DNA of 61,766 bases, from positions 1-61,766 of the forward strand of contig MNXB01000005.1 of NCBI GenBank assembly GCA_001871125.1, given 5' to 3'. The notes beneath the pieces were generated by a model, which did no database searches, was not told the origin of the DNA, and worked only from the letters and a program-made list of their open reading frames with translations. The position numbers and the translations under genes are program-made. Numbering within the stretch: the first letter of the stretch is position 1; the number at the start of each line of letters is the position of its first letter. Source of the DNA: Elusimicrobia bacterium CG1_02_37_114 (lineage in GTDB: Bacteria; Elusimicrobiota; Endomicrobiia; CG1-02-37-114). Shown here piece after piece: positions 10,305-57,161 of the stretch.

Positions 10305-11720
10305 TTAACCTTTTATTACTCCTACAGGCGACATCCTCACAACTTTCTTTGATATACCTGCCTGATGGCACACTTCAACAACCATATTCACGTCTTTATA
10401 TGCTTCCGGCGCCTCTTCGGCAAGCGTCTTATATTCCCTCGCCTGAACAATTATACCTTCTTTAGCAAGTCTCTGTTTCAGTTCACCGCCGGAAACCCGC
10501 CTCAAAGCTTCCGTTCTGCTCATTGTCCGTCCTGCCCCATGACAGGTTGACCCCCAGGTTTCATCTAAAGCTTTCTGTGTCCCGACCAAAACGTATGAAT
10601 TTGTTCCCATACTGCCCGGGATGATTACCGGCTGTCCCGGGAATGCACGCGTTGCACCTTTGCGGTGGACGATAAGTTTTCTTTTCTTACCCTCAACATT
10701 ATGCTCTTCAATCTTGCCTATGTTATGTGCAACATCATACACAAGTTCAAGCCCAATATCTTTTGGTGACATCCCCATTACCTGCATAAAACTTTCCCTT
10801 GTCCAGTGAGTTATACACTGTCTGTTAGCCCAGGCATAGTTTGCCGCTGAGGACATTGCAGAGAAATAATCCTTCCCTTCATCCGAAGTTACTGGTGCGC
10901 ATACGAGCTGTCTGTCAGGGATTGAAATATTGTATTTTTTTAAGGCATTCTGTAATATTTTTATATAATCGTCACAGACCTGGTAGCCTAACCCGCGGGA
11001 ACCCGTGTGAATCATTATCGTGACCTGTCCTTTAAATAGTCCCATAGAGTTAGCTGCCTGTTCGTCATAAACTTCGTCAATTACCTGTATTTCAAGAAAA
11101 TGGTTACCCGCACCGAGTGTCCCTAACTGTTCTCTCCCGCGTTCCAGTGCTCTCTGTGAAACTTTTGAAGGGTCAGCAGAACTCATCTGCCCCTGGTCTT
11201 CAGTATGAGATAAATCTTCCTGATTACCGAACCCCTTTTTTACAGACCACTTAGAACCTTCTTCAAGAACTTTCATAACTTCGTTACGGTTTAAATTTAT
11301 TTTACCCGTTGACCCCACACCCGACGGTATATTGGTAAATAAAGTAGATATAAGTTTTTCTAATTTTGGGGACACATCACTTAATTCCAAATTTGTCCTG
11401 AGTAACCGCACCCCACAATTTATATCGTACCCGATTCCTCCAGGAGAAATAACTCCTGTATCATAATCAAATCCTGCAACGCCGCCTATCGGGAACCCAT
11501 ATCCCCAGTGTATATCAGGCATAGCAAGTGACCTGCCGACTATGCCCGGCAGATAAGTTACATTTGACACCTGGTTACTTGCCTTATCATGGACAATATG
11601 CTCCAGCATCTTTTCTGAAGCATAAATCATCCCTTCAGTCCGCATACCGCCGGATTTCGGCATCAACCACCGCCAGTCATCAATTTTTTTCAGTCCATGA
11701 TATTCAGTCATAGCAAACAC
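10305..11720 (-). CDS. rtcB: RNA-splicing ligase RtcB
   Basis: LAMPDIHWGYGFPIGGVAGFD, GGIGYDINCGVRLL, GAGNHFLE, HGAGRTMSR. Confidence 0.97.
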   Translation of the reverse strand: MFAMTEYHGLKKIDDWRWLMPKSGGMRTEGMIYASEKMLEHIVHDKASNQVSNVTYLPGIVGRSLAMPDIHWGYGFPIGGVAGFDYDTGVISPGGIGYDINCGVRLLRTNLELSDVSPKLEKLISTLFTNIPSGVGSTGKINLNRNEVMKVLEEGSKWSVKKGFGNQEDLSHTEDQGQMSSADPSKVSQRALERGREQLGTLGAGNHFLEIQVIDEVYDEQAANSMGLFKGQVTIMIHTGSRGLGYQVCDDYIKILQNALKKYNISIPDRQLVCAPVTSDEGKDYFSAMSSAANYAWANRQCITHWTRESFMQVMGMSPKDIGLELVYDVAHNIGKIEEHNVEGKKRKLIVHRKGATRAFPGQPVIIPGSMGTNSYVLVGTQKALDETWGSTCHGAGRTMSRTEALRRVSGGELKQRLAKEGIIVQAREYKTLAEEAPEAYKDVNMVVEVCHQAGISKKVVRMSPVGVIKG

Positions 11721-11724
11721 ATCC

Positions 11725-12027
11725 TTAGTAAAAATCTAAACAGTTATAATCCTCGTCAGTCAACCCATATTTTTTTAACATTTTAAAATTCTCAAGAAAT
11801 ACTCCTCTTTCTTGATGGTAGTTTTCGGGATGATACTTAGAAACGCAATCGGCATAACTGTTGAGTAATGTCAAAAGGTTTTTCTTTGTCATGTTTTTTA
11901 TTTCTAAATTAGGACAGTATTCCTCTTTTGCTTCTAAGAGATTTCTCATTGCTTCTTCATATTTAATAAAAAGAACCGCTTCATCAGGATTTATTCTTGC
12001 TTTTTTCAATAAACTTACCGCTTTCAT
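11725..12027 (-). CDS. hypothetical protein
   Basis: 100-aa ORF tightly upstream of rtcB. Confidence 0.45.
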   Translation of the reverse strand: MKAVSLLKKARINPDEAVLFIKYEEAMRNLLEAKEEYCPNLEIKNMTKKNLLTLLNSYADCVSKYHPENYHQERGVFLENFKMLKKYGLTDEDYNCLDFY

Positions 12028-12196
12028 TTTCGTTCACCTCATTTACAATATTTAAATCCTTTAATTAATTCAATCTTTAATATTTTTTTCCATTTGGTCT
12101 TGATATATGTCCATTTATTCTGTGCTTATCATAAACATCAAAAACATCTTTACAGAATTTAATCATTCTTATACACCACGACCCCACACCGCACAT

Positions 12197-13006
12197 CTAT
12201 AATTGTCTCTTTTGAAAATTTCCTCTTTTAATATTTTCTCTATCTTGTATCAGAAAAGATTCTTTCATTCTTCCAGAATCTATTAATTGATAGGCACTTT
12301 TCATCTTTGTTTTAACAATCCCTGCCTCTCTCCCTGATTTTATTATAATTTCCCTGATTTCAGAATCACTTACACCGCTGGTATCACGGTACTCCGACTT
12401 AGTCGAAAAAAATTTACGAAGACTTTTCGCGAGGACTCTGAATTCATTCTTGGTTATGGTACGTTCTAAACTCCTTATCATTTGCTTCATAATGGGTAGT
12501 ACTCGGGGGTCACGCATTAGTCCCGGTGATTCCATAAGAGTTATCCAATTAAACCATTCCCCTACCCAATTAATATCTTCCCACTTATGTCTTCCTAGTT
12601 GGTAACAATAATGCAAATGATCATATTTCTTACCTTCCCGCCGTGCTTTTGTTGTTGCTCCCACATCTGTTTTTTGGGTACCCCTTGGAAGTAATTCCAA
12701 AGGACAATGCTGTCTTATTGCCTGCCATATATAGCCATTATTCACATCTTCAGGATTTACAAGGGATTTATCATCAACAAAAGATAATTTTTCCCCCAAA
12801 GCATGCCATTTCTTTAAGGCATTTGCATTTAAAGTTCCTTCTCTTTTCATTTCTTTAAGTATATGGTTCATCTTTTGCTCAAGATACTTATCCAATCTTC
12901 TGGCTTTTTCCATATCATCTCTAGTAATTTTACCCTCTCCTAAGAAGGGGGTCATTATAATTTCTTTACCATTTATTATTGCTTTTCTTCTAACTATAAC
13001 AGCCAT
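12197..13006 (-). CDS. uncharacterized partner of the GHKL ATPase
   Basis: 269 aa; starts 3 nt after the GHKL stop codon; no recognised domain. Confidence 0.65.
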   Translation of the reverse strand: MAVIVRRKAIINGKEIIMTPFLGEGKITRDDMEKARRLDKYLEQKMNHILKEMKREGTLNANALKKWHALGEKLSFVDDKSLVNPEDVNNGYIWQAIRQHCPLELLPRGTQKTDVGATTKARREGKKYDHLHYCYQLGRHKWEDINWVGEWFNWITLMESPGLMRDPRVLPIMKQMIRSLERTITKNEFRVLAKSLRKFFSTKSEYRDTSGVSDSEIREIIIKSGREAGIVKTKMKSAYQLIDSGRMKESFLIQDRENIKRGNFQKRQL

Positions 13007-13009
13007 TTT

Positions 13010-15004
13010 TCAAATTTCCTCATAATATTTACTTTTTATTTCGGCCATTTTACCTGAAATCTCAAAATAGGCATCTTTGGGGTCTTTTAATATCTTACTT
13101 GAATCAAGAGGATGATAATCTGGAGTGCCATCTTCTTTATCTGGTCTATTAAGAATGAAATCAATGCTACCTTCTAAAAAGATCTCAAACAGGTAATCAG
13201 TTTGTAATTCTTTATCTTCTTCAACTTGCTTATAACATGAGTGCATGATATTATAATATAGAATTGGTTCCTCTCCAAGAATTCCCGTAGTAATCCATTG
13301 TCTTTTTTCAATGCCTTCTTTATTTGTAAAATCATCCGGATGTGTTTCAAAAGGCAAACGAAACTCTGGGTCTTTTTCAATCCATAGTATTTTTGAAAGA
13401 GAATCTATTTCTAAATTATTAACTTCATTTATTAAGCGAATTTTTAACCGATATTCTCCTGGGTCTGGGAATACACTCTTTGAAAAGATAATACTGAATG
13501 TACCAATCGATTTAGGCTTTAAATATGGAGTAATATCAATGTTTTTTTCATCATGCAATATATTTATTTCTCTGTCGCCAAAGAGCATAAAGATTCTTAA
13601 CCGTCCTTTTAGATGTTCATTTGTTTTATTAAATATTCTAACCTCAAAATCTTTGATTTCTTCTTCCCAATTTATCCTTGGTGCTATCTCAGGGTCTGGA
13701 AAATTAAAATTATGCAACATTATTCCTATTAGTTTATTAGACGGTGGTAGCGGAGATGGTGGAGGTGGTTTAACTATCCCACCCTTTCTACCGAATAAAT
13801 CAAGGTCTTTAGCATATTTTGATAAATATCTTAATGCATCAATTTCAGCTGATGAACGTATCTGCTTCCTCCTTTCACGCGGGTCTATTCCTATCCCAAT
13901 TTTTTTATAACCAAATTCTCTAAGTTCTTCTTTTATATATTCCTTTATTGCTTTGGGAACTGCTCTTCGCCATATTAAATCATAATGATTTGGATTCTGA
14001 TTGTAGTTCTTTCTCAATTCTCTATCTAAATCTCTATCGAATTCTATAAATCCATAAATATTGTCAGTTATATCAAGAGGAACACCTTCCATGTTTATTG
14101 AGGTTATCTTCATATTGTTATGGATAATAGTAACTCCCCTAAATTGTTCTGGTATCTCCCCTCCTTTTTTGTAAGCTATTTGGAGATGCTTTATTTTAAA
14201 TCGCTCTCCACTTAATAATTTTATTTCATCATTATTTTTAATCCATACCTTGATTTTGTCAGTATCTTTTGATGGTATGGGAAATAGTTTCGGTATTTTT
14301 GCAACTTTATCATAATCGGATGTCTTAACACGAATCTTAACTCTTTCTTTTTCTATTGCACGAAACCAAGTTTCTTCAATAGCAGTTATGAAATTACCAT
14401 TTTCGATTTCATCACATAATTCTTTAATGGGGTTAACTATTATTATCCTTGTTCCAAGCTTAGATAATGGTTCAAGGCCTGTAAGCTCTTTCGGTTCACC
14501 GCGCCCATCCTCTTCATCCCAATGAAGCATTGGACAATCTGTTTTTGTTGCCCGTGTTGCACCCAATCGATAAGTATCATCCTCTCTAAGACTGTCATAG
14601 TACATAGAGTAATCTGCTGATGCTGCTAAAAATACAAATTTTCCTTGTCCTCTTGCACCAATAGCGTCTTGATTCGATGTTGTAAAACCAAAACCTTCAA
14701 ATCTCGCCCAATGGTCTGATTCCTCAAGAGTCTCGTATTCTTCTGTTCCCAATACTTTACCAGTAAGGCCATTTGTATTGGAATCAGTCATTGTGAAAAA
14801 AGTGCCTTTTTTATTCTTTACCAACTCAAAAGTAAACTCAACAGGCACGGTTTTATTAGCCGTATGAAAAGCGTTTTGTATAGCATCCTTTTGAGCCCCG
14901 TGAGGAATCCCCAACGGATAATTATCAGCTATAGTTGTACAAATACTTACATAATCAGCTGGTCTATGGCGTCCCTTTGAAAAATCTAATTTTACCTCCG
15001 ACAT
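13010..15004 (-). CDS. GHKL (Hsp90/MutL/histidine kinase-like) ATPase with C-terminal beta-sandwich-like region
   Basis: N-box-like GAQKDAIQNAFHTANK; G1-like FTMTDSNTNGLTG; G2-like GARGQGKFVFLAAS; poly-Pro linker PPPPSPLPPS. Confidence 0.7.
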   Translation of the reverse strand: MSEVKLDFSKGRHRPADYVSICTTIADNYPLGIPHGAQKDAIQNAFHTANKTVPVEFTFELVKNKKGTFFTMTDSNTNGLTGKVLGTEEYETLEESDHWARFEGFGFTTSNQDAIGARGQGKFVFLAASADYSMYYDSLREDDTYRLGATRATKTDCPMLHWDEEDGRGEPKELTGLEPLSKLGTRIIIVNPIKELCDEIENGNFITAIEETWFRAIEKERVKIRVKTSDYDKVAKIPKLFPIPSKDTDKIKVWIKNNDEIKLLSGERFKIKHLQIAYKKGGEIPEQFRGVTIIHNNMKITSINMEGVPLDITDNIYGFIEFDRDLDRELRKNYNQNPNHYDLIWRRAVPKAIKEYIKEELREFGYKKIGIGIDPRERRKQIRSSAEIDALRYLSKYAKDLDLFGRKGGIVKPPPPSPLPPSNKLIGIMLHNFNFPDPEIAPRINWEEEIKDFEVRIFNKTNEHLKGRLRIFMLFGDREINILHDEKNIDITPYLKPKSIGTFSIIFSKSVFPDPGEYRLKIRLINEVNNLEIDSLSKILWIEKDPEFRLPFETHPDDFTNKEGIEKRQWITTGILGEEPILYYNIMHSCYKQVEEDKELQTDYLFEIFLEGSIDFILNRPDKEDGTPDYHPLDSSKILKDPKDAYFEISGKMAEIKSKYYEEI

Positions 15005-15170
15005 ATTTGCCTCCTGAATCTTAAATCTAATTTTATCTGCACTACTATAATTTGTTTACTCATTTATTTTCTTCTCATAAATTAAAGAACTCCTTAATAT
15101 CTACTTAACTGTTTTACAACTTCTATATGGTAGAAAATTTGTTGCTTTATCAAGGATAGAACTCTTTCTC

Positions 15171-15425
15171 TTATTGCTTGTTTGACATATTATAGTGCTT
15201 GCTATTGATAATTTGATTTACGCATAGACTGCAAATACTCTTCAGATTAGTAAAGTCTTCGTTTTTTGGAATTTTCCAATATCCCTCTTTATCATGTCCG
15301 TACTTATTGTAATGTCTGAAGCATTTCTCACACAGTAAATGTCCATCAGTTTGATGAAACACTTGCTCTCCTTTCAATACATGGACACAAACTACTACTA
15401 AGTTATCGCTCATAAATTTACTCAT
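15171..15425 (-). CDS. small zinc-finger-like protein
   Basis: 84 aa with LLCEKCF and SICSLC Cys pairs and interspersed His. Confidence 0.5.
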   Translation of the reverse strand: MSKFMSDNLVVVCVHVLKGEQVFHQTDGHLLCEKCFRHYNKYGHDKEGYWKIPKNEDFTNLKSICSLCVNQIINSKHYNMSNKQ

Positions 15426-15688: not shown

Positions 15689-16156
15689 TTGAAGATGGAG
15701 GAATTCTTTATGGAATTAACCCAGGAAGAAATACAGTGGCTTTATAGAAATCTGAGGAGTGTTGATTTTTTTGCAGACGCAAACGTAGATGATATTGACC
15801 TTTTGTTGAGAACACAGGTTCATAAATATTCTTACAAAAAAGGGCAGAAAATTTGTAAACAGGGCACACCGGGAGACGCATTCTTTATGATTTATAAAGG
15901 AAAAGTTTCAGTGACAGTATCCAAAGGGCTTTTCCAGAAAACCAAGGTGACTGAACTCGGTCCGGGTCAGTTTTTCGGTGAGATGGCATTGATATCCAAT
16001 GAGCCAAGAACAGCAACGGTTATTGCTGATGAATGGACAGAGTGTTTTGCTATCTTAAAGTTTGATTTCAATATGTTTGTTTCTGACAAACCTTTGTTTG
16101 CCCAGAAAGTCCGTTCAGCAACAGCACAAAGAAAATTTGAATTGCAACAGAAATGA
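15689..16156 (+). CDS. cyclic nucleotide-binding domain protein
   Basis: YKKGQKICKQGTPGDAFFMIYKGKVSVTV, GPGQFFGEMALISNEPRTATVIA; no HTH. Confidence 0.88.
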   Translation: MKMEEFFMELTQEEIQWLYRNLRSVDFFADANVDDIDLLLRTQVHKYSYKKGQKICKQGTPGDAFFMIYKGKVSVTVSKGLFQKTKVTELGPGQFFGEMALISNEPRTATVIADEWTECFAILKFDFNMFVSDKPLFAQKVRSATAQRKFELQQK

Positions 16157-54449: not shown

Positions 54450-55205
54450 ATGAAGACAAAAGTAATTTATAAACGAAAAAGAAATAAACAGATTTTTGTA
54501 AAAGAAGGTATAATCTCTACTCTGGCTTACCAGCCAGCTATTAATAAAATTTATAACATGGACTGCATAGAAGGAATGAAAAAAATTCCCAATAACAGCA
54601 TTGACTTGATAATTACCGACCCACCTTATGGATTAAACAAAAATGATGTTCGAAATGATACTGATTTAAGTCTTTTTTATAATGTTATGCCCGAATGCGA
54701 TAGAGTCTTAAAAAAACATAGTTTCTTTATTACATTTTTTAGCACGAAATTTTTACCACAATTATTTAAGGATAACCCATTCAATTATTTTTGGCAAATT
54801 GTTTTATATTGTCCTGAAGGAAGAGTTCGTTCTCCCATTGGATATACAAAATACATGTCTTGCTTTATTTTTAAAAAAGGAAATCCTAAAATTATTCGGT
54901 GGAATAAAGATATATTTATAGATACTCCTGGGAAAATGGTTGAGCCTGATGAAGGATATATAGATCACCCCACACCAAAACCTAAACATTTTATAAAAGA
55001 AATCTTAAAAATGTTTTCAAATGAGAACGACTTAATTTTGGATCCTTTTATAGGAAGTGGTAGCACTGCTGTAGCGTGTCTTCAACTTAATAGAAGATTT
55101 ATTGGTTTTGAAATTGAAGAGAAATATTACAAACTCGCTCTCGGAAGAATCCAAAAAGCATTAGGGTCGGTTATAAAAGAATCGGGAAATGGTAATTTAA
55201 AATAA
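54450..55205 (+). CDS. DNA methyltransferase, beta-class-like motif order
   Basis: LIITDPPYGLNKND then DPFIGSGSTAVACLQLNRRFIGFEIEEKYY. Confidence 0.92.
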   Translation: MKTKVIYKRKRNKQIFVKEGIISTLAYQPAINKIYNMDCIEGMKKIPNNSIDLIITDPPYGLNKNDVRNDTDLSLFYNVMPECDRVLKKHSFFITFFSTKFLPQLFKDNPFNYFWQIVLYCPEGRVRSPIGYTKYMSCFIFKKGNPKIIRWNKDIFIDTPGKMVEPDEGYIDHPTPKPKHFIKEILKMFSNENDLILDPFIGSGSTAVACLQLNRRFIGFEIEEKYYKLALGRIQKALGSVIKESGNGNLK

Positions 55206-55214
55206 GAAATAAAA

Positions 55215-55964
55215 ATGGATTATGCAATTAAAGAAAACAATATTTTATTAACCATACCCGCTACTAATGCCGGTAAATTCAGATTTAAAAAAAGAAAGAG
55301 CAGATTAGATTTCGGTGAAACATTTTCTACAAGAAAATGTCCTTTTGATGAGCAAACATACTTAGAATGGCAAATTAGTTACGATATTCCTATTAAAGAT
55401 ATTGAAAAAGGCAAAAAAGGGACAAAATTAACAAGCAAGCATTTTGTTGGAAGTAACGGGAAAGAAAAGTATCCCTATGAATTATCAGAAATATTTTTTA
55501 AGGCGATGGAGTTAAAATTAATTACTGAAAAAGAAGTTAAAGATTTACTTAATGAAATAAGTCGTTATAAAAGTTTTATAGATGAAAAAGATATAACCAT
55601 TGAACATCATTCAAAGATTACCATAAACGGAATAAACTTTGAAGAAACAAGTATTAAGTTGCCGACACTTTTCATGATCGAAACCTTGGACAATACGCAG
55701 ATAGAGGTGTCTATTGAAAAGCAACAATATGCCTCTGGCGTTCAGCCGATGGTTTATTTTTGCATACCCTTAAAGGCATTCAAGAATTCATCAGTGCTTT
55801 ATGGCAAATCATCCATTTCTGGCGATAAACTTGACTACGTTATTAACAAAAACAATGTTTTAAATCTTGTTTTTATGATGAAAGTGTTTGGAATGGCATC
55901 CAAAAGACACAATCACGATATTGTCAAAATACTTGAAACACTTCTTGAAATTATTAATAGGTGA
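55215..55964 (+). CDS. putative restriction endonuclease (possibly R.PabI-like)
   Basis: Between two MTases; KFRFKKRKSRLDFGETF, YLEWQISYDIPI, KRHNHDIVKIL. Confidence 0.5.
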   Translation: MDYAIKENNILLTIPATNAGKFRFKKRKSRLDFGETFSTRKCPFDEQTYLEWQISYDIPIKDIEKGKKGTKLTSKHFVGSNGKEKYPYELSEIFFKAMELKLITEKEVKDLLNEISRYKSFIDEKDITIEHHSKITINGINFEETSIKLPTLFMIETLDNTQIEVSIEKQQYASGVQPMVYFCIPLKAFKNSSVLYGKSSISGDKLDYVINKNNVLNLVFMMKVFGMASKRHNHDIVKILETLLEIINR

Positions 55965-55970
55965 TAATTA

Positions 55971-57161
55971 ATGCAAGTCCATTTAGCAGAACATCTGCCG
56001 AAAAGTAAAAGAATCCAATTAGGCAGTTACTATACTCCCGAAGAACTTGTTAAATTGGTTCATGAGTTTATAAAACCTTACTTGGAAAACAAGAAAAAAG
56101 ATGTTATCTTGTTTGATAGTGCAGGGGGATGCGGGGCATTTTTATTCGGCATCAAGCAGAGCGATTATCGGATAGCGGATCGTGATTTAAAAGCCTGCGA
56201 GTTTCTCAAACAACATTTTAATCAACAGAAAGTTTTTCATACAAATTCTTTAAATGAAATCAACAGAGAAAAATATTTTATTTCTCCTTCTGCGTTTTTA
56301 ATTATGATAGGAAATCCACCTTATAATGATACAACATCAGAATTTAAGAACGGCGAAAAGGGACAAAATATATGCGATAAAGATTTATATGATAGAGATA
56401 TAGGTGTTTCATTCTTAAAGTCATATCATAAACTTAATGCTGATGTCGTTTGTGTGTTACATCCACTCTCATATTTAATAAAAGAATCTAATTTTGAGAG
56501 ATTACACGATTTTAAAGATAACTACAAGATAATAAGAGCTGAGATATTTTCTAGTGCATTGTTTCATGGAACAGGAACAAGTAAATTTCCAATATTGGTG
56601 GCTCTCTATGAAAAAAATGCAGATGGAATGACATTTAATTATATTAGGAATTTTAGATTTAACATATTAGATAGTGACAAAACATTTGTTTTATCCAATT
56701 TTAAAACTACTGATGGATATATTAATAAATACCCTCCACGCAAAAACGATATCCAAAAATCTCCTATTGGTTTGTATTATTATAGTTTTCGCGATATTAA
56801 TTCTTTAAAGAAAAACACCTCTTTTATGACAAAAGAACATCCCAACGGAATTGTGGTGACATTAGAGAATTTTTATAAGTATGCATATCTTTATTCGCTG
56901 AAAAATCTGTTTAATCCCGAAGATGCATGGTTATATGGAAATTTATCTCCTCTTGTCAATATAGAAGAAGTTGAACAAAATAAAGACCTTTATATCTTGT
57001 ATGCTATTAAAACTAATAAAGTTTTGAGAGAAATGGATAATTCCATTTTGAAGAAAGTTATTCATTATTATGAGATTACATTGAATAATATAGATGCTGT
57101 TGATAGGATAGAGAAAGAAATCAGAGATAGATTGGATAAATTAATTGCAATGGAAAAATAA
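55971..57161 (+). CDS. N6-adenine DNA methyltransferase
   Basis: RIQLGSYYTPEELVKLV, DSAGGCGAFLFGI, MIGNPPYND. Confidence 0.85.
   Translation: MQVHLAEHLPKSKRIQLGSYYTPEELVKLVHEFIKPYLENKKKDVILFDSAGGCGAFLFGIKQSDYRIADRDLKACEFLKQHFNQQKVFHTNSLNEINREKYFISPSAFLIMIGNPPYNDTTSEFKNGEKGQNICDKDLYDRDIGVSFLKSYHKLNADVVCVLHPLSYLIKESNFERLHDFKDNYKIIRAEIFSSALFHGTGTSKFPILVALYEKNADGMTFNYIRNFRFNILDSDKTFVLSNFKTTDGYINKYPPRKNDIQKSPIGLYYYSFRDINSLKKNTSFMTKEHPNGIVVTLENFYKYAYLYSLKNLFNPEDAWLYGNLSPLVNIEEVEQNKDLYILYAIKTNKVLREMDNSILKKVIHYYEITLNNIDAVDRIEKEIRDRLDKLIAMEK

Follow-up and report, generated by a model that had tools for sequence, protein, structure and literature searches.

A rare GHKL-S5 ATPase gene and its partner gene, a candidate paraMORC-type restriction or defense module of bacteria and archaea

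Layout of the locus

What is the role of a GHKL-type ATPase gene that is followed, almost without a gap, by a gene of no recognizable family? We addressed this question for a block within the window (the whole stretch of DNA analyzed here, 61,766 nucleotides), where searches of the window proteins against Pfam, PADLOC, NCBIfam, and PHROGs gave no convincing matches. The pair is best read as an unnamed, rare, and horizontally moving paraMORC-type restriction or defense module with a new partner family.

The ATPase gene lies on the reverse strand (13010..15004, 664 amino acids). After a gap of 3 nucleotides, it is followed by the partner gene on the same strand (12197..13006, 269 amino acids). 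A third reverse-strand ORF (15171..15425), located 166 nucleotides upstream of the pair, encodes an 84-amino acid, Zn-finger-like protein with a CxxC/CxxC pattern. The coordinates and lengths given in an earlier note on this DNA proved correct on re-check. The note had also regarded the genes as an accessory block, and their base composition bears this out, with a GC content of 32–36% in the block versus 37–44% in the surrounding DNA. The low-GC block sits between core genes. It is flanked by serS and rtcB at one end, and its neighbors at the other end are a cNMP-binding-like gene, a MazE-like/YoeB-like pair, tRNA-Leu, and glmS. Direct repeats marking an insertion were sought at the flanks of the block, and none was convincing. 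Divergent from the block, an ORF at 15689–16156 (plus strand, 155 amino acids) reads as a protein with a cyclic nucleotide-binding domain.

Domain organization of the ATPase

The N-terminal part of the 664-residue protein (residues ∼15–235) resembles a Bergerat ATPase domain with motif I (QKDAIQN, residues 38–44), motif II (DSNTNGL, residues 74–80), motif III (GARGQGK, residues 116–122), and motif IV (GTR, residues 184–186). QKDAIQN, DxxTxGL, GxxGxGK, and GTR are invariant among six aligned family members; the GHKL motifs quoted by the earlier note are thus genuine and recur in relatives. At the acidic position of motif I, these six sequences feature an aspartate instead of the usual glutamate.

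The ATPase domain is followed by an S5/transducer-like domain (residues ∼250–370), which contains the FRGVTIIHNNMK loop and carries QNPNH at the position of an ExxxH motif. The basic residue of this loop (Lys-299 in GVTIIHNNMK) is a lysine in five of six members and a threonine in L004. A proline linker (residues 413–421) leads to an Ig-like β-sandwich (residues 426–542) and a helical tail (residues ∼590–664) with a conserved N585xxH588 motif. The β-sandwich had been proposed before and appears in the AF2 model with seven strands (pLDDT mostly 72–88). The PPPPSPLPP segment fits the linker role assigned to it, but it is not conserved, as relatives possess other linkers (for example, a Gly-rich one in L002).

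The AF2 model of the full protein has a mean pLDDT of 67 and was built on an alignment of five sequences. In a Foldseek search against the PDB, it matched the ATPase–S5 modules of topoisomerase VI-B, GRP94/TRAP1, SMCHD1, and MORC3/4 (E values of ∼1e-10 to 1e-7, probability 1.00), and the alignments to MORC3/4, SMCHD1, and topoisomerase VI-B span ∼410–510 columns. The HATPase fold anticipated for 13010–15004 is therefore present in the model. Motifs I–IV and the modeled Bergerat fold place the protein in the GHKL ATPase superfamily, and the predicted S5-type transducer with its basic loop residue fits the GHKL-S5 group (MutL, topoisomerase VI-B, MORC, and Hsp90). The window protein deviates from its relatives in motif II (DSNTNGL versus DxGTxGL), in the S5 loop, and in QNPNH versus ExxxH. 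Because the motif II of a cousin GHKL protein, L042, also reads DxNTxGL, the deviation in this motif need not mean lost activity.

The fold also bears on the kind of action to be expected. MORC3/4 and SMCHD1 modules are among the best PDB matches of the model, neither protein of the pair contains a recognizable nuclease domain, and the window copy comes without a DNA methyltransferase or Vsr beside it, all of which would suit a MORC-like silencing complex that condenses or topologically traps foreign DNA with no cutting. However, none of the ten GHKL sequences checked contains the MORC signature of the S5 domain (GhXhhpXXRhl). Topoisomerase VI-B and Hsp90, moreover, match the model equally well, so that the fold cannot choose between outcomes. 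We consider silencing of this type unlikely and retain a restriction or defense module as the preferred reading.

The partner protein

The description of the 269-residue protein as belonging to no recognized family holds against Pfam families and PDB chains, with zero matches. Its AF2 model is of low confidence (mean pLDDT 58) and comprises a short N-terminal β-hairpin, followed by mostly helical structure; a PDB search with this model was uninformative because the model is too poor. The partner varies between 209 and 270 amino acids across loci, and Ala-35, Gly-71, Trp-94, Trp-151, Trp-154, and Arg-190 are invariant in the seven homologues. No nuclease motif is visible in the partner sequence. 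Two assignments were discarded. A weak match to PP2C_C (E value 0.033) arose with a single member and was attributed to chance, and kinship with the small proteins of PDC-M33/Mza-like loci was dropped after profile comparison showed no detectable relation to either. The partner represents a new family that is probably obligate to the GHKL protein.

Conservation and distribution of the pair

To find relatives, we scanned 85,462 genomes with a query that gave extra weight to the motifs presumed to belong to the ATPase and S5 domains; its conserved stretches were chosen from an artificial alignment that kept these presumed motifs alone. The scan yielded four distant relatives (27–38% identity by tblastn), and its hits were independently confirmed by tblastn and by the presence of a downstream partner. 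Profile searches around these four revealed two more copies and showed that the truncated L003 copy continues on L009, where its other half lies. In total, six distant copies of the pair were found, in archaea, Ignavibacteria-class genomes, and one unclassified bacterium. Their GHKL proteins share 25–35% and their partners 19–26% sequence identity with those of the window.

The resulting sample consists of seven loci, two of which (L005 and L016) are closely related to each other. In all seven, the partner starts 0–4 nucleotides past the stop codon of the GHKL gene (window, 3; L002, 0; L004, 1; L005, 2; L009, 2; L016, 2; L011/L025, 4 when counted from ATG). The linkage of the two genes, on which the earlier note had made its proposal depend, is thus kept throughout. 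For L005 and L016, dN/dS is 0.12 (GHKL) and 0.17 (partner), indicating that both genes are under purifying selection in this pair of copies.

The family is rare: it occurred once among 342 genomes of the window's phylum, twice among 281 genomes of L005's phylum, twice among 296 genomes of L003's class, and once among 249 genomes of L002's phylum. BLAST against 296 genomes of the window's phylum returned the window copy alone, and a profile search of 342 genomes of that phylum added one distant cousin, which falls outside the family of the pair. Viral contigs contained no relatives in single-protein and profile scans, nor did plasmids and phages in tblastn searches with the window, L002, and L005 queries. 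The L011 partner, from an Ignavibacteria-class genome, is 42–44% identical to those of the archaeal loci L005 and L016 and 23% identical to that of L009, likewise of the Ignavibacteria class, which favors lateral transfer.

Genomic neighborhood

A C5-cytosine methyltransferase (C5-MTase) adjoins the pair in four of the seven loci, accompanied by Vsr in three (L005, L016/L026, and the L025 part of L011/L025) and by an HhH-GPD glycosylase in one (L002). On the basis of these four loci, we assign the pair to the restriction-linked radiation of GHKL proteins (MORC/paraMORC), and from the combined analysis we judge a role in restriction or defense, in the broad sense, moderately probable. No SFII helicase was seen beside the pair. 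The neighborhood of L005 further includes a 569-amino acid protein (11160–12869, minus strand) with no family match, in which a D...QLK stretch forms a possible, unproven PD-(D/E)xK pattern.

Neither C5-MTase nor Vsr is adjacent to the pair in L003/L009, L004, and the window. The genome of the window (96% completeness) has no matches to C5-MTase or Vsr at all, so that the window pair must work alone or with other proteins. This genome (2.09 Mb) is unusually rich in methyltransferases, with 35 matches to N6/N4 DNA methyltransferases (PF01555), some of which are fragments of one gene, yet it has no C5-MTase. A second block that resembles a restriction-modification (R-M) system lies in the window at 54450–57161 (plus strand), between valS and hisG-like genes. 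It comprises an N4/N6 methyltransferase (251 amino acids), a 249-amino acid protein that is possibly an endonuclease, and a 396-amino acid protein with an N6-methyltransferase-like NPPY motif.

Four of the seven loci combine a C5-MTase and an enzyme of the T:G repair type (Vsr or HhH-GPD), and this could also point to a MutL-like repair accessory, in which the GHKL protein and Vsr or the HhH glycosylase would repair deaminated 5mC near the C5-MTase and have no part in defense. The link of MutL to very-short-patch repair described by Iyer et al. (PMC2292703) speaks for the same idea. In the window genome, however, the pair would have no repair substrate, because both C5-MTase and Vsr are missing there. 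In addition, C5-MTase R-M loci often contain Vsr without any GHKL protein, and we regard a function in repair as improbable.

Under the preferred reading as a restriction or defense module, the extent of the system needs to be defined. The genes upstream of the pair differ between loci, being other genes or nothing recognizable. L005 and L016 encode a protein with a Zn-ribbon and a region shared with the upstream protein of L002 (BLASTP E value 1e-5), and L003 encodes a sigma-region-4/α-CTD protein. The earlier note had included the 84-residue Zn-finger-like protein in the block. As a third component, we rejected it; the ORF is set apart by 166 nucleotides, is not conserved next to the relatives' pairs, and is unrelated to the Zn-ribbon protein upstream of L005. 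Since upstream genes vary and the ORF of the window is unrelated to them, it is left out and probably lies outside the system. Three elements of the earlier note's reading stand: the ATPase has a GHKL fold, the two genes form a pair, and the block is accessory in character. A defense function is attached to them by genomic context only.

The Zn-ribbon/winged-helix-like or sigma-region-4 features of the relatives' upstream genes would be compatible with a regulatory pair, as would the layout itself: a two-gene GHKL module with a small partner beside C5-MTase and Vsr recalls the HEF_HK and Response_reg_2 pairs (PMC8011034). Yet PF19191 (HEF_HK) matches none of the ATPases and PF19192 (Response_reg_2) none of the partners, and the S5 domain is a feature of topoisomerases, MutL, and MORC, not of the histidine kinase layout. 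A regulatory function therefore appears very improbable to us.

Proposed mode of action

MutL, topoisomerase VI-B, and MORC close a gate or clamp on DNA in an ATP-driven manner. If the pair acts as a restriction or defense module, ATP binding by the GHKL-S5 protein would lead to N-terminal dimerization and to the closing of a gate or clamp around DNA. The C-terminal β-sandwich and helical tail of the GHKL protein would likely provide the docking surface for the co-translated partner, which, made from the same transcript, is likely the effector or target reader. In most relatives, self DNA may be marked by the C5-MTase, and T:G mismatches arising from deamination of 5mC may be repaired by Vsr or the HhH glycosylase. 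The putative GHKL–partner complex would target unmarked incoming DNA and either promote its cleavage (by a Vsr-like or another nuclease) or occlude it. In the window genome, foreign DNA might be recognized by another cue or via one of the many N-methyltransferases.

We tentatively extend this scheme to an undescribed defense system that would act directly on invading DNA through a GHKL clamp gated by ATP, together with the new partner family. Such a system could exist in bacteria and archaea in two forms, one guided by C5-methylation (with C5-MTase and Vsr or glycosylase) and a stripped-down, methylation-independent form of two genes, as in the window. Predictions dating back to 2008 have GHKL-S5 ATPases driving restriction-type systems, and their mechanism is little understood where no nuclease is obvious. 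Being compact and keeping its new partner family in every locus seen, the pair offers a small, testable case. Comparing pairs with and without a C5-MTase would tell whether methylation is a self mark or an add-on.

Comparison with known systems

As the earlier note had stated, the pair corresponds to no named defense system. PADLOC and the literature gave no assignment, and we found no paper that names this GHKL–partner pair. MORC/paraMORC GHKL-S5 proteins have been described in R-M loci with C5-MTases and Vsr, with lateral mobility as a theme of their neighborhoods (PMC2292703). Several groups of this radiation differ from the pair. The family lacks the S5 motif of strict MORCs, the C-terminal or adjacent TIR domain of paraMORC4 (no Pfam match in the window proteins and the family members scanned), and the C-terminal HxH motif of paraMORC5 (absent from all six family members).

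The paraMORC3-type protein VcSduA (Shedu) has proven anti-phage activity (PMC12137116) and shares a GHKL ATPase domain with the window protein. The C terminus of the latter, in contrast, consists of a β-sandwich and helices, and the DUF4263 PD-(D/E)xK nuclease was unmatched in Pfam searches.

A profile match was obtained with the GHKL proteins of PDC-M33-like and Z1/DUF4420 (Mza-like) loci, which align with the GHKL family of the pair through the ATPase and S5 domains, including ExxxH (hhalign probability 98.2, E value 3.9e-14). These cousins (E values 1e-3 to 1e-5) occur with Z1 and DUF4420 genes in L021 and with C5-MTases and HhH or Vsr in L022 and L023; some of these loci thus share the neighbors of the pair. 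Whereas the pair has its single partner, the cousin loci hold two other small proteins (plus Z1/DUF4420 in L021). Pfam and PADLOC detected no Z1 or DUF4420 among the neighbors of the pair, unscanned neighbors being judged from their translations. The PDC-M33A model of PADLOC matches the cousins L021 and L022 and leaves the GHKL proteins of the window and L005 unmatched. In L022 (G1003) and L023 (G924), a PDC-M33A-like GHKL protein with two small proteins adjoins a C5-MTase, with an HhH glycosylase in L022 and Vsr in L023, an arrangement suggestive of a link to C5-methylation R-M for the PDC-M33 candidate module as well.

The family also resembles paraMORC2, whose mark is an ExxxH motif in the C-terminal portion of the S5 domain (PMC2292703). 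The motif is present in L002–L005, L016, and the cousins L021–L023 and L042, and the window has QNPNH (QxxxH). Like paraMORC2, the family combines GHKL and S5 domains, is sporadic and laterally mobile, and is linked to C5-MTase and Vsr. It differs in its constant single partner of 209–270 amino acids, the lack of an SFII helicase, and the Ig-like C-terminal domain with its NxxH tail. Because its profile matches the cousins, ExxxH included, and because it shows the MORC/paraMORC traits described in PMC2292703, the family is best called paraMORC2-like, a placement made by motif and published description, in which the window protein departs from the exact mark.
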